This document shows, one piece after another, positions 1,280-13,914 of a stretch of 32,920 nucleotides of DNA; positions within the stretch are counted from its first letter, which is position 1, and every line of letters starts with the position of its first letter. The stretch comes from an uncultured Clostridia bacterium (lineage in GTDB: Bacteria; Bacillota; Clostridia; Christensenellales; CAG-917), in the NCBI GenBank assembly GCA_947382865.1, contig CANDBF010000018.1, positions 1 through 32,920 of the forward strand. Reading direction: 5' to 3'. The position numbers and the translations under genes are program-made. The notes under the pieces were generated by a model that was given only the letters and a program-made list of their open reading frames with translations, made no database searches and had not been told where the DNA came from.

Positions 1280-1308
1280 TTGACAGATCTTCGCCTAAAT
1301 GTTATAAT
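1280..1308 (+). promoter_or_regulatory. Consensus sigma-A promoter for glf
   Basis: TTGACA at 1280-1285, 17-base spacer, TATAAT at 1303-1308, a perfect consensus match. It lies 37 bases before the glf ATG and excludes any upstream start in the -35 region. Confidence 0.85.
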
Positions 1309-1345
1309 TTTAATAATACTTGTTGAAACTTACGGACGGTCTGAA

Positions 1346-2455
1346 ATGTTTTACGATTATCTCATAGTCGGCGCGGGGCTCACGGGCGCGATATTCGCGC
1401 GGGAACTTACGGACAGCGGCAGGAAGTGTCTGGTTATCGAAAAACGCCAGCATATCGCAGGCAACGTATACACCGAGAAAAAGGAAGGCATCGACGTACA
1501 TAAATACGGCGCGCACATTTTCCACACCAACAGCGATAGGGTCTGGGAGTACGTAAACCGCTTTGCCGAATTCAACGGATTTATCAACAGCCCAATCGCG
1601 GACTATAAGGGCGAAAGGTACAATCTCCCCTTCAATATGAACACCTTCGAGCAGATGTGGGGAGTGAAAACCGCGGAAGAAGCACAGGCGAAAATCGCCT
1701 CTCAGATTGCGGATTTGCATATCGGCGAGCCGCAAAATCTCGAAGAGCAAGCCTTGAAGACGGTGGGCAGGGATATATACGAAAAACTCGTAAAAGGCTA
1801 CACCGAAAAGCAGTGGGGACGCGACTGCCGCGAGCTGCCCTCTTTCATAATCAAACGTCTGCCTTTGAGATTTACGTACGACAACAACTACTTCAACGCA
1901 AGGTATCAAGGCATTCCGATAAACGGCTACACCGCTATGGTGGAGAATATGCTCAGCGGCATAGAGGTGCGCTTAGGGACGGACTACTTCGATTTTGTGA
2001 AAAAGAGCGAAGATAAATTTTCAAAAACGCTGTTCACGGGCAAAATCGACGAGTTTTTCGCATACGAATACGGCAAGCTCGAATACCGCACCGTAGATTT
2101 GGTCGAAAAAACCTTAAATCAAGAGGACTTTCAAGGCAACGCCGTCGTCAATTACACCGACAGGGAAACGCCCTATACCCGCATAATCGAGCACAAGCAC
2201 TTCACGGGCGCGAAATCGGATAAGACGGTGATAAGCTACGAGTATCCCGCCGAGTGGACGGAGGGCGCGGAAGCCTACTACCCCATAAACGACGAAAAGA
2301 ACAATTCTCTTTATAACAAGTATATCGAAAAGCTCCCGTCAAGATCCGACGTCATTATGGGCGGCAGACTCGGAGAGTACAAATATTACGATATGGACAG
2401 GGTCATCGAGCGCGCGCTCGAGCTTGTAGAAAACGAAAAAAATGCTGCTGTATAA
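1346..2455 (+). CDS. glf: UDP-galactopyranose mutase
   Basis: This flavoenzyme interconverts UDP-galactopyranose and UDP-galactofuranose in the cytoplasm, supplying the donor for galactofuranose-containing glycans. The 369-residue protein starts MFYDYLIVGAGLTGAIFA: the FAD-binding GxGxxG is at residues 9-14 and the acidic residue ending the second strand is in LVIEKR. Family blocks GAHIFHT, YNLPFNM, GYTEKQWG, ARYQGIP and the C-terminal MGGRLGEYKYYDMD are all present. The frame is open 22 codons further upstream, but that extension begins inside the -35 box, so ATG 1346 is used; its ribosome site is weak (GGACGGT). The last 14 bases overlap the glycosyltransferase gene, so the two are coupled. 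Confidence 0.97.
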   Translation: MFYDYLIVGAGLTGAIFARELTDSGRKCLVIEKRQHIAGNVYTEKKEGIDVHKYGAHIFHTNSDRVWEYVNRFAEFNGFINSPIADYKGERYNLPFNMNTFEQMWGVKTAEEAQAKIASQIADLHIGEPQNLEEQALKTVGRDIYEKLVKGYTEKQWGRDCRELPSFIIKRLPLRFTYDNNYFNARYQGIPINGYTAMVENMLSGIEVRLGTDYFDFVKKSEDKFSKTLFTGKIDEFFAYEYGKLEYRTVDLVEKTLNQEDFQGNAVVNYTDRETPYTRIIEHKHFTGAKSDKTVISYEYPAEWTEGAEAYYPINDEKNNSLYNKYIEKLPSRSDVIMGGRLGEYKYYDMDRVIERALELVENEKNAAV

Positions 2456-4136
2456 TCTCACGTTCCCGAAGCCAGACGTTTGCAACGAAAACGAATTGTA
2501 CTTACGCGGAGGCGAGCTCCGCGACGGTCGCGTTTTCCTTAAAAGCGGCGAGAGAATTGCGTTCGATACCTATTTCAACGCGTTTTCCCACATAAAATAT
2601 AAAAAATACACAAATATTACTCGCGTTACCTGCAAATTTGAAACGGACGGCGCAGGGCTCGCCCGCATTCTGCGCTACACGGCGGACGGACAAGCCGAAG
2701 TGCTTGCAAAGGAAGAGATTTCGGGGAACGGGGAGCTTTGCGTAGAGCTTGCGCCTATCGAGGATAAGGGCTTCTTGTACGCGGATTTCACGGCGCAGGA
2801 GGATTGCTCGTTTACAGGCGGCGGCTGGTATGCCGACGTAGTTCGCGTACGTCCCGTCAAAATCGGAATCGTCATATGCACGTTCAAGCGCGAGCAGTAT
2901 TTAAGGCGGAATATCGAAAATCTCCGAAGATATACGGAAGAAACGGAAAATAAGTTTTTCGACGTTTATATAATCGATAACGCGCGGACGATAAATGAAG
3001 ATTTCGGCGAGGGAATAAAGGTCATTCCAAATCCGAATACAGGCGGCAGCGGAGGCTTTACTCGCGGCATAAAAGAGGTTGAAAAAGGCGATTACACCCA
3101 CTTTCTGCTTATGGACGACGATATACTCTTCGACGTCCGCATACTGGGCAGAACCGCCGCTTTGCTATCCGCGCTGAAAGAGGAATATACAAACGCGTCC
3201 GTAGGCGGCGCAATGCTCATCCTAGACAAACCGCATATGCAAAAGGAACAGGGCGGAGATTGGACGGGCTATGTAACAGAGCCGAGAAGACATATGCTCG
3301 ACGCGCGCGAAGCGGCAACCGTATGCGGCAACGAGGAGGATAAAGAGCCCAATTACAACAGTTGGTTTTATATGTGTATGCCGTCGGATACGCCGAAAAA
3401 ATACGGATATCCCCTGCCCTTTTTTATCAGATGCGACGACGTGGAATACGGCCTGCGCGCCGCGGAGCATATCATCGTAACCTCCGGCATAGCCGTCTGG
3501 CACGAGAATTTCGGCAACAAGTACAGCCCCGAAATGGAATATTATATCAGGCGCAACGAGTTGATTTTGTGCTCGCGCTACCCTTTCGGCAAAGGCTTTT
3601 TCGCCAACTGGAAGAAACTTGCGCTGGGGGTCGGCAAAACGATAGCTCTTCAAAGATACTATGCGGCGGATTTGCGATTCAAGGCATACGACGACTTTTT
3701 GAAGGGACCTAAGTACTTCCTTACGCTTAATGCGGAAGAAAATCACCTTGCGCTTAAAAAGTACAGTCCCGAGTTTTTGAAGAAGAGCGAAATTGAGGAG
3801 AAGTTCGGTATAACCGTATATTGCGACGCGCAACGCGAGCATAAAAAATTCAGGCTCAAAAATCTTCTCACCCTGAACGGGTATCTCATTCCCAAATGCT
3901 TTTATAAAAAAGAAATAGCGCAAATTGACACGCGAGACTATTCCGTCGGCGACTTTTACAAGCAGAGGCAGGTTGTGCAGTTCAATCCGCTTATAGGCAA
4001 GGGCTTTGTCACAAAAATAAAGAAATCCGCTATTTTCAAATACGGGTTTAAGCTGATAGGCTATTTTTTCAAGCTGATGTTCCGCTATCGCGCCACGGCA
4101 AAGAAATTCGCTGCTATCGACGTAAAAAGCATTTGA
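2442..4136 (+). CDS. GlfT2-like galactofuranosyltransferase (GT2 family)
   Basis: A 564-residue enzyme predicted to transfer galactofuranose from UDP-Galf to a growing glycan. Residues 1-138 form a beta-rich N-terminal domain like that preceding the catalytic domain in mycobacterial GlfT2. The GT-A fold begins at KIGIVICTFKREQYL (140-154). The metal/nucleotide DDD motif is LLMDDD (222-227), followed by RCDDVEYG (330-337) and the catalytic-site block AVWHENF (351-357). A C-terminal domain of about 200 residues follows. It overlaps glf by 14 bases, which strongly supports UDP-Galf as donor. The family resemblance is to GlfT2 (637 aa in Mycobacterium tuberculosis), but acceptor and linkage cannot be read from sequence. 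A strong terminator follows. Confidence 0.88.
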   Translation: MLLYNLTFPKPDVCNENELYLRGGELRDGRVFLKSGERIAFDTYFNAFSHIKYKKYTNITRVTCKFETDGAGLARILRYTADGQAEVLAKEEISGNGELCVELAPIEDKGFLYADFTAQEDCSFTGGGWYADVVRVRPVKIGIVICTFKREQYLRRNIENLRRYTEETENKFFDVYIIDNARTINEDFGEGIKVIPNPNTGGSGGFTRGIKEVEKGDYTHFLLMDDDILFDVRILGRTAALLSALKEEYTNASVGGAMLILDKPHMQKEQGGDWTGYVTEPRRHMLDAREAATVCGNEEDKEPNYNSWFYMCMPSDTPKKYGYPLPFFIRCDDVEYGLRAAEHIIVTSGIAVWHENFGNKYSPEMEYYIRRNELILCSRYPFGKGFFANWKKLALGVGKTIALQRYYAADLRFKAYDDFLKGPKYFLTLNAEENHLALKKYSPEFLKKSEIEEKFGITVYCDAQREHKKFRLKNLLTLNGYLIPKCFYKKEIAQIDTRDYSVGDFYKQRQVVQFNPLIGKGFVTKIKKSAIFKYGFKLIGYFFKLMFRYRATAKKFAAIDVKSI

Positions 4137-4297: not shown

Positions 4298-7200
4298 TTA
4301 TTTAAGCGCCGCCGTCGCGCCCGCCTCGGCGAGCTGTTTGATAAGCGCGTTGCCGTTTGCGGCAGTCATTTTATCCTTGATTGTGACAGGCACTCGCTCC
4401 GCCATCTCAACAAGGTTTTTCGCATCGGCAAACCCCAGCCCCGTCGCGTCTTTGACGACCTTAATGACCGAAATCTTGTTGGGACCTATCTTCTGCAATA
4501 CAACCTTTCTGTATCCCGTTTCCTGAGAAGTCGAATATGCGTTGTTCACGCTGTACGTGGGCGCAATATTGTCGCTTGCGGCATACGCATATTTAGACGA
4601 GGTATTGACACTAGCCGAGAAGTCGGTTGAATTGTGCATAATGCTGTTGACAGTCGCCTCGTCGATGCCTATTCTGTATAGGTCGATGCCGTTGTTGCTT
4701 GCGAGGGTTTTGATTTGATTGTTGTAGTTTTTTATAGCGTTATCAATTTCAATTTTTAACGCTTGTTGTCTACTGTTGAAATCTGCTTCTATGGTCTGTA
4801 TCTGCCTCTCCGTTCCTCCTTTGATTCCGTAGACGTGGTCGTCCATAGATTCTTTGAGGAAGTGTATACCGACTCCCACGCCTCCGATGACGAGCAAACC
4901 GATAAGCGGAACCAAAATCCAGCAGCAAAGGAATATTATTCCCGTTATTACGCCGCCGCCTGCCGCGCCGGCCAAAGCTCCTGCGAAAGCTCCGCCGGGT
5001 CCGCCGGCAAAAAAGCCGATAATTGCGCCGATAATTGCGGGAATACCTATCAGCACTCCGCAAACCGTGCTCGCATTGTCTTGAAGCGTTGCAAGCCACC
5101 TTGCCGAAACGCCGTGTGCAAAAAATGAGAAGCATCCGAATACAACACCCGCGATTACGCCCAATATGACGAAAACAAGAGCCGTGATAGCAAGATTCTT
5201 TTTTGCCGCCGCGCCGCTCGCCCTCGAATTTGCGGATTTACGCATCTTATCCTTTTCGGCGTGAAGCTGTTTGGTCCTGACCGCGGTTTCGCTTTGTCTG
5301 CGCTCTATGTACTCCTTTCTCTCCCACGTCATAGCGAGAGCTTCGAGTATCTTCAAATGGTTTACGTCGCAGGGGAGAATGTTGTCGGCATATTCCTCCT
5401 TGGAAATAGGAGGCTTGTTTTCGACAAACTCTCCCGTCCTCGCGTTTTTTCTGTATCCGAAATAACCGCTCTGGAAGAAATGGTTCTCCATAGCCTTTTG
5501 CTGTTGATAGGCTTTGAGATATTTCACGCACCAGTCGTTTTCCTGAATTTTGTCCATCGGATACTGGCCGCGTTTCGAGAACAGCTCCAAATCGCTTCTG
5601 CACTGCGCGTCGGCAAGCAGCATGCCCCAGTAGCACTCGGGGTGGTTGGAAATTTTCCTCTTTCTGGTGTTGATCTCGAAGTTGAGCAGCTCGACGAAAG
5701 TCTTCATCGCCTCTTCAAACTCGCCCTTGGCGAGATGCTCCCAGCCGCGCTTTTCGCTGACCGACTCGAACAGCATCAGCTTCATTTCGTTGAAACTATT
5801 GTAATACTTGTTCGCGTTTATATCGCCGTTCGAAATTGCTCCGTACAGCGCTTTCATAAAGTGGTCGTCTTCGGATATATCGTCCTTATGATACATCAAC
5901 GCCTTTTCGTCTCTGCACCTGCGGTCGGCTTTTATCATACCCCAGTGGGCTTCGTGGCAGAGGTCGTCTATGTTTATCATAGGACCGTAGTAGTTCTTCG
6001 CAAGGTCGTACTGTCCCATTGCAAGCAGCATATCCGCAAAGGGAACAAGATATTTTTTGTTCCTCTCCTTATCTTCCTGCGGCACAAACTGAATGATATA
6101 GTCGAACACAGTCGTCGCCACGTCGTAGCTGCCCTCGCGCCCCTGAATGAGCGAGAAATTGACGAGGTCTGTCTGCATCTTCGCGCGCAGACTGGGACCG
6201 CTCCCCTTTTTGGACTTGGCTTCTGCATATTTAAGGATATTTTCAAGGTCGGTTTCCTCAACCTTGGTCGCCTTTATATGGTCGGTATGCTTAACAAGCC
6301 CGTTCATGCACATGAGTTTGTCGAAGTAGCATTGCGCGTCATCGATAAGCTCAAGCGATTTATCGTAATAAATCAGCGCGTCGTCAAAGCGCATTACGTC
6401 GTGCAGACAGCGGGCGAATTCATAGTTCATCTTGGCGTACTTTTCGACCTCGGTGTCGTTGTACGTCCTAAGCACGCAGTCAAATATACTGGTCGCAAGC
6501 GCCTTGTCCGCGTTCGGCTTTTTGAGCACGGATTTGCTGAAATTGAGTAAGGTGTTTCTGATACCGTCAACGTCATTTTCTGGCGCCCACTGCGCTACGA
6601 GGTTGAAGGATTCGACGATGAAATCGGTGTTTTCATCCGCAACCGCTTTATCGCATATATCCTTTGCAAGCTCGATTATCTTCTGGAAAATAGCCTTATC
6701 CGTACAGCTTTGCAGTATCTCGTCAAGCCATTTGATACAGTTTATGCGCTCTTTATACTCTTTGACGTACTGCTTATCGTTGCAAATACCCTCTTCGGCA
6801 TAAATCAGATACAGCTTAGCGGCTGATGAATACTCGTTCTTTTGCAAAACGCCTTTACAAAACTGAGTCGCGGCGCTGAAATTGCTCTGTTCAAGCCAGA
6901 TTTTGACCTGATTGATTATCGCGTCCTCTTTAACGTCGACCTTTTTTCCTACGAATTCCTTTCTCTGAATTTGCAGAGACGCGTCCATAACCTTTTTAGG
7001 GCCGAAGTGCTTTACGTCGGAGAAGGTCTTTCTCACAATGTTGTTGGCTGACGGATATTTCGCAAAGGAGCGGACTATAAAATCCTCCATCTGCTTGTCG
7101 TAGTTTCTGTCGTGGTACTTTATGCCCTGTATCTTCGCGAGCTTGGCGGGCATGCCGTACGGAAATTCATTGGGGTGCACTATGGTGATTGTTTCGGGCT

Positions 7201-8005
7201 TTTTCAAGCCGTCCTTCATCATACGCAGATAACGCGACCACTCGTTTTTGACCCAGACCGCGTTTGCATATTCCGCCTTTGAGCATATAAGTATAAACAC
7301 TTTCGCGCTTTGCAAGGCTCTGAATATAGTAGGCTCGAAGTTTGTGCCCGCCTTCAAAGACTTTTCGCTGTAAAAAACCTTATATCTTTTGGAAAGGTCG
7401 TTGTATATATCGTTTGCATACATCGAGTCCTGCGTGCGGTCGTCGCTGCCGATCTCCGTCTTTTTGAAGGACAGGAAAATGTCGTACGGCTCTTCCTTTT
7501 CAACGAGCTCGATGATTTCCTTTCTTATAACCTCGACGACCTCGGCTTGCTCCTTGTAGAACTGCTTCATATGCTCGGGAGCATATTTTATCGCTTTTTT
7601 GTAGTCTACCTGCTCGTAAAAGCTGTCAAAGTTGGCGCGGTTGCAGGTGGGCTTGAAGCCGTTGTCCTTTTCGTATATAATACCGTTTTTGGCAAGCAGA
7701 CTGTACCAGTACGCCTCGTAGCAGTTGGGAGCGGTCTCTATGGCTACCTCCAAATCCTCTATCGCGTCCTCGAACTCGCCCTGTCTGTACTTGGAAGTAG
7801 CCTGCGTCAGTATGGACTGAATTTCAGGCGACCATTTGCCGGAGCCGTCGGTGTACTTGTTGTGACATCTCGGACATTCGACGTATCTCAAGCCGTCTTC
7901 GGCAAGCCGAGACTCCGACCAATCCAGCCTGCCTCCGCAGGTGGGGCATTTCTCCTGCCTGACGGTCAGAGTCGACTTTGCATCGTTTGTATACTCTTCG
8001 CTCAT
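4298..8005 (-). CDS. Zinc-ribbon / TIR / TPR-like / membrane protein with C-terminal ribosomal L7/L12-like domain
   Basis: A 1235-residue multidomain protein. Order: zinc ribbon (C20, C23, C44, C47); TPR-like helices (about 60-160); TIR domain (about 173-312) with YDIFLSFK, VFYSEKSLKAGTNFE and NAVWVKNEWSRYL. E224 falls where TIR NADases place the catalytic glutamate. Long TPR-like helical repeats (about 360-900) follow. Next come three or four hydrophobic stretches between about 937 and 1048, one glycine-rich, and a coiled coil (about 1065-1105). The last 70 residues (VVLQKIGPNKISVIKVVK, then TGLGFADAKNLVE) match the C-terminal domain of ribosomal protein L7/L12, which binds translational GTPases. 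It is the last gene of the cluster, 232 bp after the AAA gene across hairpin repeats. The start has ribosome site AGGAG. NAD hydrolysis is plausible but unproven; the L7/L12 call is strong by eye. Confidence 0.85.
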   Translation of the reverse strand: MSEEYTNDAKSTLTVRQEKCPTCGGRLDWSESRLAEDGLRYVECPRCHNKYTDGSGKWSPEIQSILTQATSKYRQGEFEDAIEDLEVAIETAPNCYEAYWYSLLAKNGIIYEKDNGFKPTCNRANFDSFYEQVDYKKAIKYAPEHMKQFYKEQAEVVEVIRKEIIELVEKEEPYDIFLSFKKTEIGSDDRTQDSMYANDIYNDLSKRYKVFYSEKSLKAGTNFEPTIFRALQSAKVFILICSKAEYANAVWVKNEWSRYLRMMKDGLKKPETITIVHPNEFPYGMPAKLAKIQGIKYHDRNYDKQMEDFIVRSFAKYPSANNIVRKTFSDVKHFGPKKVMDASLQIQRKEFVGKKVDVKEDAIINQVKIWLEQSNFSAATQFCKGVLQKNEYSSAAKLYLIYAEEGICNDKQYVKEYKERINCIKWLDEILQSCTDKAIFQKIIELAKDICDKAVADENTDFIVESFNLVAQWAPENDVDGIRNTLLNFSKSVLKKPNADKALATSIFDCVLRTYNDTEVEKYAKMNYEFARCLHDVMRFDDALIYYDKSLELIDDAQCYFDKLMCMNGLVKHTDHIKATKVEETDLENILKYAEAKSKKGSGPSLRAKMQTDLVNFSLIQGREGSYDVATTVFDYIIQFVPQEDKERNKKYLVPFADMLLAMGQYDLAKNYYGPMINIDDLCHEAHWGMIKADRRCRDEKALMYHKDDISEDDHFMKALYGAISNGDINANKYYNSFNEMKLMLFESVSEKRGWEHLAKGEFEEAMKTFVELLNFEINTRKRKISNHPECYWGMLLADAQCRSDLELFSKRGQYPMDKIQENDWCVKYLKAYQQQKAMENHFFQSGYFGYRKNARTGEFVENKPPISKEEYADNILPCDVNHLKILEALAMTWERKEYIERRQSETAVRTKQLHAEKDKMRKSANSRASGAAAKKNLAITALVFVILGVIAGVVFGCFSFFAHGVSARWLATLQDNASTVCGVLIGIPAIIGAIIGFFAGGPGGAFAGALAGAAGGGVITGIIFLCCWILVPLIGLLVIGGVGVGIHFLKESMDDHVYGIKGGTERQIQTIEADFNSRQQALKIEIDNAIKNYNNQIKTLASNNGIDLYRIGIDEATVNSIMHNSTDFSASVNTSSKYAYAASDNIAPTYSVNNAYSTSQETGYRKVVLQKIGPNKISVIKVVKDATGLGFADAKNLVEMAERVPVTIKDKMTAANGNALIKQLAEAGATAALK

Positions 8006-8242
8006 TATCCTCTCCTTTAATAAACGTTTATACCTATTATATCTTTATAATATCAACATATATATGCGAGCGCACGTGAGTATGCGCGCGCATTACCGCC
8101 GTTCCTCGCTAAAAGTAACCTTTGATTCCCCGTCAAAACATCGAGTTCGATGGGATTAATATCGGGGTCCCCGCAAAACGCCCCTGTTTTGTGGGGTTAA
8201 TATCGGGGTCCCCGCAAAACGTCCCTGTTTTGTGGGGTTAAT
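8006..8242 (-). repeat. Tandem 41-bp hairpin repeats in the AAA-TIR intergenic region
   Basis: Two 41-bp copies (8152-8192 and 8193-8233; two mismatches) plus a 9-base third start (8234-8242) that contains the stop codon of the AAA gene. Each copy holds an 11-bp hairpin: CCCCGCAAAAC pairs with GTTTTGTGGGG across a 6-base loop. Each also has a short CGGGGTCCCCG palindrome. No T-run follows, so these resemble REP-type palindromes or mRNA stabilisers/attenuators more than simple terminators. The rest of the gap (8006-8151) is AT-rich near the TIR gene, with a TATAAT (8049-8054 region, minus strand) lacking a clear -35; a separate TIR promoter is possible. Confidence 0.8.
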
Positions 8243-10376
8243 TCTCTGCTTTCCACTCCATCAGCTTTTCGATATCTTCCTTTTGCACAGTGGAGGAGAT
8301 TTCGTTAAGCGCCGCGACGAAATCCGCATGTACTATGTACTTCGCGCCCGTCTGTATGCCGCGCAAAATGGAAATTTCCTCTATCTTATCCATAAGGTTG
8401 GTCATATCCGAGCCGTTGAAGCCCTCCGTCGCCGCGACAACCTCGTCGATACGAATATCGTCCGCGATTTTTACGACGCCCTTTCCGCCGACCTTGCGGA
8501 GTCTGTTTTCAATCATATATCTGCGCGTCTCGTCGTCGGGAAGCCCCACGTAAATTCTCGTGCCGAAGCGACCGGGTCTTACAAACGCGCTGTCCATATC
8601 CCACGGCTTGTTTGTCGCCGCAATCAAAAACAGAATGTTGTTGGTCTGCTTGTTGTAGCTCTCCACTCCCTGCAGCTGTGCAAGAAGCTCTGAGCGGAGC
8701 TGCTTTGCGTATTGCGATTTGGTGTTCTTGGGAGAAATGGAGTCCATTTCGTCAAAATAAATCACGGCGCAGGCATACTCTCTCGCCTGCGCGAAAAGCG
8801 CGCGCACCGCCTTTTCGGACTGTCCCGCACCCTGATGAAGCAAATCTGACGGCTTGACCGAGCAGAACTTTGCGCCTATCTCGTTTGCAATCGCCGCCGC
8901 AATCATAGTCTTGCCGGTTCCGGGAGGTCCGTAAAGCAAAAGTCCGCCGCCGTTCTTCTTGACGTAGCCCTCGAACGCTTCGGGGTTTTCGAGAGGAAGC
9001 AAAACCTTTATCTTTACCGCCTCTTTCACCGCGTCGAGTCCCGCGACGTCCTTGAACGTGACCTCGGGCAGACTGTCCCACTCAAACTTGAATTCGCTGT
9101 TAAACGCGCTCTTCCCGTCCTCCAAAACCTTATCCTCGGGAGACGGAATATCGTCGTCCTTTGCGTTCTTATTGTCGCCAATTGGGGTTTTATCGTTATT
9201 TTTCGGATTATTATCTATGTGTTTCGGAGAATAGTCCTCGTCTTCGTCGTTCCCGTCCGACTTAATCGGAGGGAAATTTATGTCAAAAGGGAGGTCTTGC
9301 CTCGTTATAGTCGCCATCTCCTCGTTGGACGGCTCTCTCAGAGAAGCAACTCTCCTAGACTGCATAGTAACCGTCCTCTCGAACAGATTCCTCGCGTCTC
9401 TGCCGTTGCCGAAGTTCTTGTCCCTCTCTGCGTACTTTTTGTTGAAATAGGCGTGCAGCGCCTTTGACGCGTCGGGGTCGAGGACGTATTGGTTTTTGTC
9501 GCACTGGCGCTTGAATATATTGTAAAGCTCCGCGCCCGTATAATCTGAAAATTGCACGAAGTTCTTAAAGCGCGAGCGAAGTCCCGGATTGGAATTGATG
9601 AATTTCTCCATCAGATCCACGTAGCCCGCTACGATAACCACGAGGTTGTCGCGGTTGTCCTCCATAGCTTTAAGCACCGTGTCGATAGCTTCCTGTCCGA
9701 AGTCGTTGCCCGAGCCGCTCGCAAGCGCGTACGCCTCGTCAATAAACAGCACTCCGCCTTTCGCTTTTTTGAGCACCGCCTGCGTTTTGAGCGCGGTCTG
9801 TCCCACGTATCCCGCAACGAGGTCGCTCCTGTCCACCTCGACGAGGTGACCCTCGCTGAGTATGCCGAGCGCGCAGTATATCTGCGACATAATCCTCGCC
9901 ACCGTGGTTTTTCCCGTGCCGGGGTTGCCCGTAAACACCATATGATAGGACATATCAGGCACCGACATTCCGCGCGACTTGCGCATCTTGAATACCTTTA
10001 TCTGGTCCACCCAGTCGCATACCTGATTTTTGACCTCGGCAAGTCCTTCCAACTCGTTGAGACGTTTTAGCGCCTCTTCGAGGGTGATTTTTTCCGCCTT
10101 TTGCACCTTTACGTCCGTCGTCTCCTCATCCGACTGGCTCGCCTGTTTTTTCTTCTCGGGAGCCTGCAAGCCGTCCGCAACGTCGATCAGATTTTTGGCG
10201 CGTTTGAACCTCGCCTTCTGCAATTCGCCTTTGGTGGACTGCGCCAGCTTGAGCATCTGCTCGGCGGCAAGCATATAGTAGCGTTTTGCGAGCGCAAAAT
10301 CGCCCTTGCCCTGACTCTCTTTGGCTTTTTTCAGGTAAAGCTCAAACGTTTCGTACAGCAATTCTTCACTCGCCAT
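8238..10376 (-). CDS. MIT-like domain / CbbX-type AAA / Vps4-type AAA ATPase fusion
   Basis: A 712-residue tandem AAA+ ATPase. Residues 1-78 are a three-helix segment (YLKKAKESQGKGDFALAKRY, then LAAEQML) whose spacing matches MIT domains of Vps4, katanin and spastin. AAA1 (about 100-345) is CbbX/SpoVK-like: Walker A GNPGTGKT (150-157), Walker B VLFIDE (209-214), pore-loop YVG (190-192). An acidic, Asn/Asp-rich linker (about 372-430) follows. AAA2 (about 436-712) is of the Vps4/meiotic clade: FKDVAGLDAVKEAV, Walker A GPPGTGKT (483-490), Walker B VIYFDE (538-543), RSELLAQLQGV (561-571), sensor AATNKPW, Arg-finger region RPGRFGTR (600-607). The aromatic pore residue is absent in AAA2 (LLHQGAGQSEK). 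The start has GGGAGAG upstream. Being encoded 16 bp after two ESCRT-III-like genes suggests it remodels or disassembles their polymers. AAA assignment is certain; MIT is probable. Confidence 0.88.
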   Translation of the reverse strand: MASEELLYETFELYLKKAKESQGKGDFALAKRYYMLAAEQMLKLAQSTKGELQKARFKRAKNLIDVADGLQAPEKKKQASQSDEETTDVKVQKAEKITLEEALKRLNELEGLAEVKNQVCDWVDQIKVFKMRKSRGMSVPDMSYHMVFTGNPGTGKTTVARIMSQIYCALGILSEGHLVEVDRSDLVAGYVGQTALKTQAVLKKAKGGVLFIDEAYALASGSGNDFGQEAIDTVLKAMEDNRDNLVVIVAGYVDLMEKFINSNPGLRSRFKNFVQFSDYTGAELYNIFKRQCDKNQYVLDPDASKALHAYFNKKYAERDKNFGNGRDARNLFERTVTMQSRRVASLREPSNEEMATITRQDLPFDINFPPIKSDGNDEDEDYSPKHIDNNPKNNDKTPIGDNKNAKDDDIPSPEDKVLEDGKSAFNSEFKFEWDSLPEVTFKDVAGLDAVKEAVKIKVLLPLENPEAFEGYVKKNGGGLLLYGPPGTGKTMIAAAIANEIGAKFCSVKPSDLLHQGAGQSEKAVRALFAQAREYACAVIYFDEMDSISPKNTKSQYAKQLRSELLAQLQGVESYNKQTNNILFLIAATNKPWDMDSAFVRPGRFGTRIYVGLPDDETRRYMIENRLRKVGGKGVVKIADDIRIDEVVAATEGFNGSDMTNLMDKIEEISILRGIQTGAKYIVHADFVAALNEISSTVQKEDIEKLMEWKAEN

Positions 10377-10392
10377 AAACTCTCTCCCAAAT

Positions 10393-10959
10393 TCAGGACA
10401 TTCTCTTTTTGAGCTCTTCCAGTTCTTTTTCTATGGCGTCCTCAACAGATTCCTCCGCGGAAGCCTGATTGGTGATGAGGGATTCTATCTCCTTGCTCTC
10501 CTCCGCGTCTAGGCTGTAATTGGACGAGAACGTGGACGAAGTATCCTCCATAAAGCTCTCCATCTGCTCCGCCTGCATCTCGACGCCCATCATAGCCTCG
10601 TTGAACTGCTTGGTGACCTTCTTGAAGTCGCTCTCCTTGGTGAGCTTCATCATATCCTTGCTAAGCGTCCCCATACCCTGCAAAAACTCCGAAGTCATCT
10701 TCGTCATATCCTTCATCTGCGAGGTGATTTCAAAGTTGAGTTTCATCTCGTAAACTCTCTTCTGCTGGGCGATTGTCATTTTCAGTCCCGAGAGCGCGAG
10801 GTTGTACTGCTCGGTAAGTCCGCGCTGTTTTGCCTGCTTGCCCGCGTTTATGTACACCTGCTTCTGCTCTTCGAGCTTTTGTATCTGCTTATTCATAGCG
10901 TTTATCGTCTGCTTGATAAGCATCCTCTTTTTCATTTCCTTACTGGTTTTTACAGCCAT
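10393..10959 (-). CDS. ESCRT-III-like coiled-coil protein with C-terminal MIM1-like motif
   Basis: A 188-residue, almost wholly helical protein with no enzyme motif. The basic N-terminal half (about 9-85) forms a long helical hairpin (QTINAMNKQIQKLEEQKQVY, then SGLKMTIAQQKRVYEMK). A Met-rich middle (85-142) contains MGTLSKDMMKL, FNEAMMGVEMQAEQMESFME. The C-terminal part is acidic (145-188) and ends EDAIEKELEELKKRM. This layout (basic hairpin, middle helix with M..E.M.E...MED, acidic tail, C-terminal amphipathic helix) closely parallels CHMP1-type ESCRT-III proteins. The tail fits the MIM1 pattern (D/E)xxLxxRLxxL(K/R) apart from I for the first L and E for R. Its ribosome site lies inside the end of the preceding gene (6-bp gap). 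Coiled coils can mislead, so this is a structural proposal. Confidence 0.68.
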   Translation of the reverse strand: MAVKTSKEMKKRMLIKQTINAMNKQIQKLEEQKQVYINAGKQAKQRGLTEQYNLALSGLKMTIAQQKRVYEMKLNFEITSQMKDMTKMTSEFLQGMGTLSKDMMKLTKESDFKKVTKQFNEAMMGVEMQAEQMESFMEDTSSTFSSNYSLDAEESKEIESLITNQASAEESVEDAIEKELEELKKRMS

Positions 10960-10965
10960 AATAAT

Positions 10966-11565
10966 TTACTCCCCGTCCGTCTTGTTGACCGATATATTTT
11001 CTTCCGCCGCGGCGCCGTCTTCCTCGAATTGGAGCATGTCCTCTTCGGATTCAAACACGGCAAGCAGCTCGTCGTCATTCGTGTTTACGCCGTAAATGCT
11101 GTCGTTCTTCTCGTACATCTCCTCGACCTGCTTGAACGTCTCGTCCGCTTCGGTGAGCACGTTTTCGGCATTGACTCTCGTATTGAGCGTCTTGTTGAGG
11201 AATTTGGCAAGTCCCTTTTGGTCTCCCAAAAGGTTGCCGAGCGACATTTTCGACGTCTTTGCAAAAAACTGATTGTCGTCAATCGACTGTTTGAGCTTGT
11301 TTAGAAGCCTGAGGTTGTAAAGAAGATACATATCCCTCTGCGCAAGCTGCTCTCTCTCCGCCGTGAGAGCGTTTATCTTTTTGGCGTAAAGCAGTTTGAT
11401 TTCTCTGGACTTCTCCGCTTTACCCTTGACCTTAAAGCCCTCTATCTGCTTCTGCTTGGCGACGATTTCGTCCTCAATGGTAGTGGACTCCTTTTCCAGT
11501 TTGCATATGGCGTCGACGACGTCCTCTCTTGTCAGCTTATCGTATTTGCTTTTGAACGGCCACAT
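10966..11565 (-). CDS. ESCRT-III-like coiled-coil protein with amphipathic N-terminus
   Basis: A 199-residue helical protein beginning MWPFKSKYDKL, a short hydrophobic-then-basic start. It resembles the membrane-inserting N-terminus of Snf7/CHMP4-type ESCRT-III proteins. Residues 13-100 predict a basic helical hairpin (KLEKESTTIEDEIVAKQKQI; LLYAKKINALTAEREQLAQR). Residues 100-155 hold further helices, and the tail is strongly acidic (DDELLAVFESEEDMLQFEED, 164-183), a possible autoinhibitory or MIT-binding tail. It is probably a divergent paralogue of the next gene; the shared features are architecture and charge distribution rather than obvious identity. Ribosome site AAGGTGG precedes ATG 11565. 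It lies 6 bp upstream of its partner and 12 bp after the small helical gene, so all are one operon. No enzymatic motif is visible. Confidence 0.62.
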   Translation of the reverse strand: MWPFKSKYDKLTREDVVDAICKLEKESTTIEDEIVAKQKQIEGFKVKGKAEKSREIKLLYAKKINALTAEREQLAQRDMYLLYNLRLLNKLKQSIDDNQFFAKTSKMSLGNLLGDQKGLAKFLNKTLNTRVNAENVLTEADETFKQVEEMYEKNDSIYGVNTNDDELLAVFESEEDMLQFEEDGAAAEENISVNKTDGE

Positions 11566-11577
11566 AATCCACCTTCG

Positions 11578-11904
11578 TTATTCGAGCACTTTTCTCTCGG
11601 CAATAGCCACGTCGAGGTCGCGCAAAAGACCGTCTGCCTTTTTGCATTCCTCTTTGTCGACGGATTTGTTGAGAACGATTTTAAGGTCGCCGATAATATT
11701 CCTTATCTTCTTGTCCGCGGCGTAAACCTTGCCGTCGGTGGAAGGAGTGAGATATTTCAGCGTTTCCTGCACGTAACGCAGTTTCTCGATATATTCCTCG
11801 TCGTTGCTAAGTTTGATAAGCACGTCGATGGTCTTGCTGTTTTCCTCGATAATTTCTCTGTCCTGAATATTGGACTCGGCTTTCGTCTTTCTTCTGAAAC
11901 ACAT
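11578..11904 (-). CDS. Small helical protein of the ESCRT-like operon, function unknown
   Basis: A 108-residue protein that I do not recognise. It starts MCFRRKTK (basic, with a Cys that could aid membrane attachment) and is otherwise predicted helical, with charged heptad-like stretches (REIIEENSKTIDVLIKLS; KKIRNIIGDLKIVLNKS; LLRDLDVAIAER). No catalytic motif or membrane helix is seen. A perfect GAGGAGG ribosome site precedes the ATG. It lies 19 bp after the SPFH gene and 12 bp before the ESCRT-III-like gene, which argues for a stoichiometric or accessory part in the same complex. It could be a short, degenerate member of the same coiled-coil family or an adaptor. Confidence 0.7.
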   Translation of the reverse strand: MCFRRKTKAESNIQDREIIEENSKTIDVLIKLSNDEEYIEKLRYVQETLKYLTPSTDGKVYAADKKIRNIIGDLKIVLNKSVDKEECKKADGLLRDLDVAIAERKVLE

Positions 11905-11923
11905 AATTTATATCCTCCTCTGA

Positions 11924-12946
11924 TTACAGTTTTTTGCCGCAGCTTCTGCAAAATGCCGAACCGCCGCCGTTTTCCGCGCCGCAGTGCGAGCATACCGCAG
12001 ACGCGCTCGCTATCTTTCTTCCGCAGCCGGGGCAGAAAGCGTCCGTACTCTCATAGCTGTGTCCGCAGCCGGGGCAGAACTTGCCGCCCTTGTTTTTTGG
12101 TTCCTTACCTATAACCTTCATAACCTCGTAGTAGGCCTCTTTGTTGTGCTGTTCCAGCTCGCGCAGATACTTCTCGCGCTCCCACTCCTTGTCGTCCAGT
12201 CTTTCGACCTCGGCGAGATATTCCTTGAGCTTCTTCTCCTTGGCTTTCTCCTCTGCGAAGTCCTCGACCTTGGCGATGTCCTCTTTTGCGATTTCGAAAT
12301 CGGAAATTATGAAGTCCACAAGCTCGAGTCCCCACGAGTGCTCGAATTGCTCGCTGAGCTCCTTGCCGACCTTCTTTGCGATGAGCTTTCTGTTCTCGTC
12401 AAACTGGTCGTAAGTCAGATTGTCCGCATTCACGACTCTTAAGAAATTGTCCGCAAACTCGTCAGTGACAGCCTCGGTGAATCTTCTCGAAAATTCTATG
12501 AGGTCGAATTCCTTTCTGAAGCCGACAACCTTTCTGAAAAACTGCTCGGGATTGCAAACGGAAATGCCGAACACGCCGTTGGCGCCGATTTCGATGACCT
12601 TGTTGCTGACTTTATCCCTGTACATAACCTTGGAAGGAGTGCCCCACTCGATTTTTACGCTGGTCTCCTTGGGGATATATATGACCTCGACGGATATGCC
12701 CTTTTTCCAATTCTTGATTTCGTTCTTATCGTCGAAAACGGGGTGAGTGCCGCTCTTATAAAGCCTGCAATCTCCGCCGCCCTTGATAAGCAACGCGTTG
12801 TGCGTAAAGGGCACCTCCAAAATCGCATTCTTGTCCGTAACCATATCGTTGACGCGCACGAACAGCACCTGATTGTCGTTGACGTCCGCATTGCACAAAT
12901 TCTGCTCGAACTTGATGACTTGATCCTTTTTCTTTCCGAATAACAT
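11924..12946 (-). CDS. SPFH (band 7) domain protein with C-terminal double zinc ribbon, YdjI-like
   Basis: A 340-residue protein and first gene of the operon. Residues about 25-225 form an SPFH/band-7 domain of the COG4260 (YdjI, 'virion core protein-like') type: VPFTHNALLIKGGG, IPKETSVKIEWGTP, GANGVFGISVCNPEQFF, then SWGLELVDFIISDFEIAKED. A coiled coil follows (about 225-275), then eight cysteines as two paired zinc ribbons (FCPGCG, FCPGCG, VCSHCG, FCRSCG). There is no transmembrane segment; such SPFH proteins bind membranes peripherally. B. subtilis YdjI recruits the ESCRT-III-superfamily protein PspA, which makes a scaffold role here likely by analogy. Ribosome site GGAGGAGGAG and a good sigma-A promoter at 13006-13034 define the operon start. 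Confidence 0.9.
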   Translation of the reverse strand: MLFGKKKDQVIKFEQNLCNADVNDNQVLFVRVNDMVTDKNAILEVPFTHNALLIKGGGDCRLYKSGTHPVFDDKNEIKNWKKGISVEVIYIPKETSVKIEWGTPSKVMYRDKVSNKVIEIGANGVFGISVCNPEQFFRKVVGFRKEFDLIEFSRRFTEAVTDEFADNFLRVVNADNLTYDQFDENRKLIAKKVGKELSEQFEHSWGLELVDFIISDFEIAKEDIAKVEDFAEEKAKEKKLKEYLAEVERLDDKEWEREKYLRELEQHNKEAYYEVMKVIGKEPKNKGGKFCPGCGHSYESTDAFCPGCGRKIASASAVCSHCGAENGGGSAFCRSCGKKL

Positions 12947-12993: not shown

Positions 12994-13034
12994 TATACTC
13001 TTTCCAGTATATAGTAAGAACGCCCGACCGTCAA
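12994..13034 (-). promoter_or_regulatory. Sigma-A promoter of the SPFH/ESCRT-like operon with inverted repeat at the -10
   Basis: Minus strand: TTGACG (13029-13034), 17-base spacer, TATACT (13006-13011). The -10 is one arm of an inverted repeat, TATACT-N6-AGTATA (12994-13011), that would cover the transcription start. It is a candidate operator, though 6-bp AT-rich arms can occur by chance. The leader is about 55 nt. Confidence 0.65.
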
Positions 13035-13191: not shown

Positions 13192-13866
13192 TTATCGGTC
13201 GAACACATCCCCGTCGAAAGGGCTGTCGCCGTACTCTGTGTTATATCCCGAATTGAAGTCGGGGCGAAGCGCGTTGGGATAGCTCATATCGGTTTTGATA
13301 TCAGTCACAATCTTCTGCAGCTTGGTGCCGATTATATAAGGATTTTTCACGTCGAACAGCACCGCCGAATTGGTGGAAGCGTTGACGTAAATATCGCCGA
13401 CCTTAAAGAGCTTATCCGTCCAGCTTACCTTCACTCGTACGCTCTCGATTTCGCCGTAATTCAAAAACTTGAAATCAATGCCTATTACGCCCGAGCGAAC
13501 GATTATTCTCCTGTCCGTGACGACGTATTCGATATTCTGTATTTCGACGGTCGCCTTTACGGTACGCCCTATCCACAGCCATACAGGCGTCAGATGAACA
13601 AGAAAAAACGGGATTATAAACCCGAGTATGCCAAGCGACATCGCGCCCCTTGCCATACCTATCGACATACCTGCGATAAACCCTCCGTCGAACAACAGCC
13701 AGATAAGCGCGACGGGCAGCATTTTCATCGTCTCCTGCAAAACGTACGCCCTTTTGTTGGGCTTTCCGCGCCACAGTACCGATTCGCCTACCAGCAGAAT
13801 GTCCTCTATTTGGTTCGCCTGCATCGAATCGGATATATCGAAATACCTCTCGTCGATTTTCCCCAT
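13192..13866 (-). CDS. Membrane protein with bacterial PH-like domain (bPH2/YdbT-like)
   Basis: A 224-residue protein. A soluble N-terminus (1-45) is followed by two hydrophobic segments (about 49-68 and 75-98). A bPH2-type domain (about 105-170) then shows the usual signature: EYVVTDRRIIVRSGVIG, a NYGEIESVRV strand, and the DKLFKVGDIYV block. Members bind or sense membranes, with mostly unknown roles. ATG 13866 is preceded by GGAGG at ideal spacing; the frame extends 16 codons upstream, but that portion contains the promoter -10 and is excluded. The gene has its own promoter and terminator immediately upstream of the ESCRT-like operon, so a functional link is suggested only by position and the shared membrane theme. 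Confidence 0.85.
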   Translation of the reverse strand: MGKIDERYFDISDSMQANQIEDILLVGESVLWRGKPNKRAYVLQETMKMLPVALIWLLFDGGFIAGMSIGMARGAMSLGILGFIIPFFLVHLTPVWLWIGRTVKATVEIQNIEYVVTDRRIIVRSGVIGIDFKFLNYGEIESVRVKVSWTDKLFKVGDIYVNASTNSAVLFDVKNPYIIGTKLQKIVTDIKTDMSYPNALRPDFNSGYNTEYGDSPFDGDVFDR

Positions 13867-13885
13867 AACAGCCTCCGTGCCGTAA

Positions 13886-13914
13886 ATTATACCGCTTTGC
13901 GCGCTTCGATGCAA
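13886..13914 (-). promoter_or_regulatory. Sigma-A promoter for the PH-domain gene
   Basis: Minus strand: TTGCAT (13909-13914), 17-base spacer, TATAAT (13886-13891), giving a leader of about 13 nt that still contains the GGAGG site. The region from here to the pyrG promoter (13915-14160) is AT-rich with no supportable gene. Confidence 0.75.

Follow-up and report, generated by a model that had tools for sequence, protein, structure and literature searches.

A rare ESCRT-like operon of new layout in an uncultured Clostridia bacterium

Published surveys report that the pairing of an ESCRT-III-like filament (ESCRT, endosomal sorting complex required for transport) with an AAA motor is absent or rare in bacteria. 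Makarova et al. (PMC10936438) could identify homologues of ESCRT components in archaea and not in bacteria; among the archaeal loci, those of the Meth_adaptin kind include an SPFH protein with a coiled coil and a zinc ribbon. Bacteria have no clear homologue of Vps4, which raises the question of how their PspA and Vipp1 polymers are driven (PMC7615534). Ravi et al. (PMC11237479) describe Vps4-like genes that moved to bacteria, with snf7 displaced in their examples, as well as PspA or Snf7 genes standing beside AAA proteins in some bacteria; these include a bacterial PspA beside a two-AAA protein whose first AAA domain is inactive. The psp locus of Bacillus subtilis (PspA-YdjGHI) has an SPFH partner, and YdjI marks the membrane for PspA (PMC8581546). 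Here, we examine a five-gene operon at positions 12946-8238 (minus strand) of a stretch of 32,920 nucleotides from an uncultured Clostridia bacterium (assembly GCA_947382865.1, contig CANDBF010000018.1). This whole stretch is called the window below. No description of the five-gene unit was found in a search of listings and passages of open-licence PMC papers.

An earlier note, made from the letters of the DNA alone, had seen five tightly packed minus-strand genes with gaps of 6-19 base pairs (bp), and had read them as a bacterial system of ESCRT-III and Vps4 type. The observation is confirmed and the reading is partly supported. All five open reading frames are found on the minus strand, with gaps of 19, 12, 6 and 16 bp. 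In 5' to 3' order, they encode an SPFH protein with C-terminal zinc ribbons (340 amino acids, 11924..12946), a small protein of 108 amino acids (aa; 11578..11904), a 199-aa helical protein (10966..11565), a 188-aa protein (10393..10959), and an AAA+ ATPase of 712 aa with two AAA domains, D1 and D2 (8238..10376).

It is fairly probable, we believe, that these genes specify an ESCRT-type, ATP-driven module for membrane remodelling, where SPFH-anchored filaments are remodelled by the AAA motor, most likely for envelope repair. The basis for this was found directly in the gene set and its order, the ATP-site residues, the SPFH domain with its zinc ribbons, the profile similarity of the 188-aa protein, a gene fusion in a second type of locus, and the linkage to a TIR gene. 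We infer, in turn, the ESCRT-III fold, polymerisation, membrane binding, contact between an MIT-like region and a helix, the action of the motor on the filament, and the purpose of the whole.

Related loci were sought by scanning contigs of one genome per species with six short ATPase patterns, a scan that misses others. It returned 38 loci, and these alone are counted here, since some loci from another search look like the same genomes (L002 and L009, for example). They come from metagenome-assembled genome (MAG) records titled Clostridia, Clostridiales, Eubacteriales, Firmicutes, Bacilli, Erysipelotrichaceae or "uncultured bacterium." The survey of gene order proposed in the earlier note found the full order, on one strand, in 20 of the 38; in five of those 20, the 188-aa gene and the ATPase gene lie 1.9-4.1 kb apart. 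Contig ends cut four of the incomplete loci (L010, L011, L038, L041). Three of the five genes are present in L020 and L021, only the ATPase in L028, and the 188-aa gene with the ATPase in L030. Seven loci form a second type (L033-L037, L039, L042) and three a third (L040, L045, L046). The Walker A Lys and the Walker B Asp and Glu, six residues over both AAA domains, are intact in 25 of 26 aligned ATPases, that of the window included; the exception has Asp replacing Glu in D1. The recurrence of the complete order and the keeping of the ATP-site residues place this gene cluster beyond chance, and a chance cluster was rejected.

The 188-aa protein is, of course, the part on which an ESCRT-III reading must stand. 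Its best Pfam family is Snf7 (PF03357; E 0.048, 13.8 bits), which is matched by 11 of the 27 aligned members of its family (P0004, P0007, P0012 and 24 from the loci, out of 477 proteins found). Compared with a set based on CHMP2, the family profile gives E 3.4e-4 over 129 columns, where the best of 46 background comparisons gives 0.07. Compared with a Snf7-positive family from the third type of locus, it likewise lies well outside those 46. For these comparisons, the sets were thinned at 85-90% identity, the 188-aa set was used without L007 and L008, type III Snf7 relatives of up to 180 aa were dropped, and fused domains were cut at 200 residues. The structural model has a predicted hairpin-plus-arm layout with a C-terminal helix at 169-187, and the Foldseek check that the earlier note had suggested returns CdvB and a chain of the IST1-CHMP1B copolymer as its top rows. 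Within that helix lies the motif IEKELEELKKR (residues 176-186; 10402..10434, minus strand), which we take to resemble MIM1. A strict form of this C-terminal pattern, confined to the last 32 residues, is present in 93 of 121 relatives, and a looser tail pattern, which may also arise by chance, in 121 of 121, in both cases among the matches listed (120 listed proteins of the 477 found, plus P0004).

Several results weigh against this kinship. The score of the 188-aa protein falls under the curated Snf7 cut-off (13.8 versus 27.3 bits). It is the sole Snf7 match in its genome at E up to 1; by itself, however, this means little, because the whole-genome search gave sub-cut-off matches in 9 of 14 control genomes as well, E. 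coli included. With relatives from loci of the window's type (type I) alone, the profile comparisons are weaker, at E 0.0043 for CHMP2 and 0.029 for the Snf7-positive family. No ESCRT-III chain was found when the family profile was compared with PDB sequences, and the single 188-aa sequence meets CHMP2A at E 1.8, below a capsid protein (1.4). The Foldseek E-values are 0.085 or worse with low template-modelling scores, and BAR and designed helical proteins rank high too. The evidence is thus weak but consistent, and the 188-aa protein is classed here as ESCRT-III-like, a remote relative and not a member of PF03357. The competing assignment to TelA or toxic-anion-resistance families, named in the earlier note, was looked for and does not appear in the Pfam listing for either the 188-aa or the 199-aa protein at E up to 1.

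On a different explanation, these genes would encode an envelope-stress polymer of the PspA/Vipp1 type, and the AAA gene would be no more than an acquired neighbour. Precedent for it exists in the SPFH partner of the B. subtilis psp locus (PMC8581546) and in the bacterial PspA that stands beside a two-AAA protein (PMC11237479). The protein in that second example has an inactive first AAA domain, however, while both ATP sites are kept here. Further, none of the four Pfam families that the 188-aa protein matches at E up to 1 is PspA_IM30, and a six-frame search of the genome with PF04012 at E up to 0.01 found nothing, although the same search was over the cut-off in 9 of 14 controls. The absence of PspA is not certain, because the genome is about 95% complete. 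Membership of the 188-aa protein in the PspA family was rejected, and the explanation as a whole, already weakened, must be considered very improbable.

Support for an ESCRT-like module comes from the other types of locus. Type II loci encode a protein whose N-terminal domain is a homologue of the 188-aa family (hhalign prob 99.4, E 1.1e-21, 163 columns; E 4.6e-19 against the 188-aa set without type II members). In 7 of 7 loci, this ESCRT-III-like domain shares its protein with an AAA module whose scores with D2 of the window are 418-481 bits (for example, the gene at L033 9311-10909). Separate genes in six of the seven loci encode an MIT-like region, which matches that of the window type at E 1.4e-9, and a D1-type module (235-347 bits). 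Thus, type I unites parts that are separate in type II, while type II unites the filament domain with the motor. Genes of a TerD cluster, one member of which was checked by Pfam, occur in the same stretches as the fusions in L033, L035 and L039.

In type III, a protein at L040:8914-9504 is over the Snf7 cut-off (32.2 versus 27.3 bits). Precomputed Snf7 annotation is present in 17 of its 59 relatives, one of which is named "SNF7 family protein"; some of the 59 come from Bacilli, Erysipelotrichaceae or Acholeplasmatales records. Genes of this family (L040 8914-9507, L045 5364-5957, L046 5479-6072, in Firmicutes, Erysipelotrichaceae and Bacilli MAGs) adjoin three or four AAA genes and an SPFH gene. 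A PDB sequence search with the family profile found no ESCRT-III chain. The same profile matched 0 of 398 genomes in a phylum sample, a count that is uninformative without a positive genome. The earlier note had placed the operon closer in layout to the archaeal and eukaryotic ESCRT module than PspA is. This holds, and the type II fusion and the Snf7-positive type III protein support the core of its reading.

The 199-aa protein was proposed as a second ESCRT-III-like subunit, and here the claim fares less well: the 188-aa protein has weak but consistent sequence evidence and a model, while the 199-aa protein has a model of low confidence (predicted local distance difference test 64.8, with confident helices at 13-50 and 54-96), which itself weighs against the proposal. 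The top Foldseek row for that model is a CdvB2 filament (prob 0.97, E 0.16), and ESCRT-III or Vipp1 structures make up 21 of the 50 rows listed; other helical folds also rank high. Profile searches and comparisons gave no sequence-level or profile link to ESCRT-III. A PDB sequence search with the family profile found no ESCRT-III chain, and comparison of the 188-aa and 199-aa family profiles returned nothing. An ESCRT-III-like fold for this protein may be suggested from the model, at low confidence. Its family does conserve a short hydrophobic-basic N-terminus in which F4 and K7 are invariant in 21 rows, and the family profile weakly matches the C-terminal part of a 501-aa type II protein (0.0069).

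That same 501-aa protein (cluster c8) is matched at its N-terminus by the profile of the 108-aa family (E 8e-5, 99 columns). The 108-aa protein, judged helical by eye, has no Pfam family over cut-off. Its family forms cluster c4 in 15 of 38 loci, and by phmmer it is present in the 20 complete loci. The SPFH protein is easier to place, as the earlier note had named it: the SPFH domain is over cut-off for Band_7_1 (PF13421; 54.8 bits, cut-off 24) and Band_7 (PF01145; 25.4, cut-off 23.6), as are the zinc ribbons for Zn_Ribbon_1 (37.4, cut-off 25) and DZR (33.5, cut-off 27.3). The helical stretch between them was judged by eye to be a coiled coil, and no hydrophobic segment of the protein exceeds 1.06 on a 19-residue scale. 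Its genes form one cluster (c1) in 24 of 38 loci, across all three types.

The ATPase had been described as having an MIT-like N-terminus and a second AAA domain of Vps4/katanin type. Part of each statement stands. The C-terminus of D2 matches Vps4_C with 22.9 bits (cut-off 21.3), and 20 of 20 scanned relatives match it at E up to 1. CDC48 proteins can match Vps4_C too, so this match is not specific. A tryptophan follows the NKP motif in 26 of 26 ATPases, presumably a resemblance to the Vps4/katanin clade. D2 is of the classical AAA kind. In NCBIfam, it scores alike with the CDC48, PAN and CdvC models; since these models do not separate the three, the label "katanin-type" was dropped. The place of the pore-loop aromatic residue of Vps4, located by eye, holds Gly in 26 of 26, which counts against a Vps4-like motor, as does D1, which is SpoVK/EccA/CbbX-like. 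The protein has two AAA cassettes, where Vps4 and CdvC have one. This is, thus, not a plain Vps4.

For the N-terminus (about residues 1-79; 10140..10376, minus strand), a profile of 20 sequences meets four MIT reference sequences with E 7e-5 (56 columns); a reversed control gives 0.034 and the best of 30 shuffles 0.063. TPR sequences are met by this profile as well, a consensus TPR at 2e-4 (18 columns) and the TPR taken from the TIR proteins at 4.2e-4 (30 columns). A match at 4e-7 also joins the MIT references to the consensus TPR. Against an MIT assignment, Pfam MIT is matched neither in the ATPase of the window nor elsewhere in its genome at E up to 1 (12 of 14 controls had matches, two of them over cut-off), and among 25 aligned N-termini, a few of them from other types, TPR_8 matches five and MIT one. 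Among 21 N-termini of related single-AAA ATPases, MIT matches three (best 0.0029), while TPR families match two or fewer each (best 8e-4; first 25 of 39 families). The profile comparison modestly prefers MIT to TPR, and an MIT-like N-terminus is favoured, if unproven.

The character of D1 invites another explanation. Here, a chaperone of the SpoVK/EccA/CbbX kind would remodel the SPFH scaffold, the small proteins would be adaptor coiled coils, and their likeness to ESCRT-III would be convergent. D1 clearly resembles these three in NCBIfam (296.7, 287.9 and 251.7 bits, each below the cut-off of its model), and its pore-loop Tyr is kept in 24 of 26 ATPases. The lack of a sequence link between the 199-aa family and ESCRT-III fits this explanation too, as do the other helical folds that rank high against both models. 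It does not, however, account easily for the grouping of the 188-aa family with CHMP2 and the Snf7-positive family, or for the fusion of a related ESCRT-III-like domain to the D2 module. Nor does it account for two separate models that each put archaeal ESCRT-III filament proteins first in Foldseek. A chaperone of this kind is unlikely.

The earlier note had called the system self-contained. This is doubtful, because a TIR gene recurs as its neighbour, and the interval of five genes may not be the whole system. The TIR gene of the window (8005-4298) lies 232 bp downstream of the operon on the same strand. Its product, a likely functional partner of 1235 aa (4298..8005, minus strand), is laid out as zinc ribbon, TPR, TIR, hydrophobic segments and an L12 C-terminal domain (TIR_2 51.8 bits, cut-off 28; Ribosomal_L12 58 bits, cut-off 25.9). 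It is the sole TIR_2 match in its genome at E up to 1e-4. Genes of this kind are present in 20 of the 38 loci, and in four (L015, L027, L029, L043) they lie between the 188-aa and ATPase genes. A glutamate column, which we take to be catalytic, is kept in 23 of 23 aligned TIR rows. Leucine-rich repeats (BspA-type, in a receptor-like layout) occur in two of five scanned TIR proteins (L022 13060-17607 and L044 12091-14871).

The five-gene unit is, moreover, rare and patchy. In counts that each include the genome of the window, 8 of 60 relatives have the 188-aa gene at E up to 0.001, with two close to this threshold, as do 3 of 391 genomes of a class sample (1e-6) and 1 of 398 of a phylum sample; the ATPase is present in 8 of 297 genomes of an order sample at 1e-120. 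The site is variable within the genus. CTP synthase is conserved there, but 7 of 7 loci without the operon have no SPFH, 108-aa, 199-aa, 188-aa, TIR or PH genes beside it (tblastn, stretches of 7-20 kb); one of them has an AAA segment of 32% identity.

All of this could be read as an immune or abortive-infection system, where the ESCRT-like polymer and its motor sense or cause envelope damage and the TIR protein depletes nicotinamide adenine dinucleotide (NAD). The TIR genes in and beside the operon, the sole TIR_2 match of the genome being the next gene, the glutamate column, the repeats of the receptor-like partners, and the patchy presence at a variable site are each in keeping with it. A TIR gene is missing, however, from the available stretch in 18 of the 38 loci, some of them short contigs. 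Seven whole genomes have 1-4 TIR_2 matches each at E up to 1e-4; in four (G000, G016, G172, G066), at least one match is no more than about 3.5 kb from the ATPase, but in the other three none adjoins it. At E up to 0.01, no PADLOC model matches the 108-aa, 199-aa or 188-aa protein. (Of the others, the TIR protein matches a TIR-containing model at 1.5e-5, the SPFH protein matches LmuB weakly at 1.3e-4, and the AAA parts of the ATPase match IetA, TRIP13 and others.) Immunity as the function of the whole is quite unlikely.

For the membrane-remodelling module that we prefer, the parts may be put together as follows. The SPFH protein would mark a patch of the inner membrane, the role that YdjI has for PspA (PMC8581546). 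The 188-aa protein, and probably the 199-aa protein, would polymerise at the marked patch. The ATPase could dock, through its predicted MIT-like N-terminus, on the C-terminal helix of the 188-aa protein and then thread the filament subunits apart, with D1 and its pore-loop Tyr the likelier puller. The purpose would most likely be the repair or sealing of a damaged envelope, possibly one under attack, and the TIR protein might serve as an alarm or an executioner when repair fails. A role in repair or defence is suggested by the TIR link, by the patchiness, and by the lack of a detected PspA. Cell division as the main role is unlikely because the genome has FtsZ, and was rejected.

The surroundings of the operon hold a few further features. 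A bacterial PH-domain protein of 240 aa (13192..13914, minus strand; bPH_2 35.3 bits, cut-off 22) is a possible partner; among same-genus loci, its gene adjoins the operon in 2 of 2 with the operon, and adjoins CTP synthase in 0 of 7 without the operon. Between the SPFH gene and the next gene upstream lies a terminator-like hairpin (13166-13144). A promoter-like match 5' of the SPFH gene (13006..13034, minus strand; TTGACG-17-TATACT, 10/12) agrees with the consensus and nothing more, as such matches in the region are not clearly above chance (9 observed versus 5.7 +/- 2.6 in shuffles). The SPFH gene is also preceded by a strong ribosome-binding-like site, GGAGGAGG. A 12-pair hairpin (8210-8237) lies immediately 3' of the stop codon of the ATPase gene; its left half recurs just downstream on the minus strand. 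The window also encodes, some 1.1 kb past CTP synthase, a Toastrack (DUF4097) protein (17949-17098), a family that Ravi et al. (PMC11237479) name as a partner in PSP systems. Its positions 1280-4136 hold a gene pair for UDP-galactopyranose mutase and a galactofuranosyltransferase-like protein. A cluster c3, with genes such as L012 12075-12800 and L033 12074-13243, occurs in 19 of 38 related loci, and both of the members scanned are trypsin-like peptidases with a zinc ribbon; no c3 peptidase gene was noticed beside the operon in the window.

A bolder account goes further than the one preferred here. It would see a complete bacterial ESCRT machine in a single operon, made of two ESCRT-III subunits, an SPFH platform and an MIT-bearing AAA motor, and coupled with an immune receptor of the TIR kind. 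Fusion and fission would have shuffled the modules, as where type II joins ESCRT-III to its own AAA motor, and the machine would belong to a bacterial branch of ESCRT that runs parallel to the archaeal branch or predates it. Its task would be to repair a breached membrane or to sacrifice it. This account is doubtful, though it has some real chance of being right. Should the module prove to be what it appears, it would provide a small bacterial system for studying how filament and motor are coupled, and would bear on whether ESCRT predates the archaea. ESCRT-based membrane repair is part of eukaryotic cell death, and the link to TIR would parallel this.

How, then, does this unit compare with the systems already described? 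With eukaryotic ESCRT-III (CHMP1-3, Snf7) and Vps4, it shares the predicted hairpin-plus-arm layout, the Vps4_C match of D2 and, presumably, a MIM1-like C-terminal helix. It differs in that its protein misses the Snf7 cut-off, its motor has two AAA domains, and the N-terminus of that motor is MIT-like but unproven. D1 is shared with SpoVK, EccA and CbbX; we know of no ATPase of that group that combines such a D1 with this D2, an MIT-like N-terminus and ESCRT-like partners. As in the PspA/Vipp1/LiaH family and the PspA-YdjGHI locus, a polymer of the ESCRT-III superfamily (predicted here) has an SPFH partner (PMC8581546), but the 188-aa protein matches Snf7 and not PspA, a two-domain AAA motor is part of the unit, and the genome has no detected PspA. 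The neighbourhoods of Ravi et al. (PMC11237479) likewise place ESCRT-III superfamily genes beside AAA ATPases, a two-AAA protein among them, whereas the present unit keeps both ATP sites and has an ESCRT-III-like gene; AEY64321.1, or some of their Snf7 examples, may overlap with this unit. Archaeal ESCRT, both CdvB-CdvC and Meth_adaptin, has one or more ESCRT-III-like proteins and an AAA motor with an MIT or MIT-like N-terminus, as here, and the Meth_adaptin loci add the SPFH-coiled coil-zinc ribbon protein. Unlike these, the present unit is bacterial and linked to TIR, its motor has an extra AAA domain of SpoVK type, and Pfam names no winged-helix or adaptin domain in the five proteins (for the ATPase, among the matches listed). 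It is, in short, an ESCRT-like operon of new layout.

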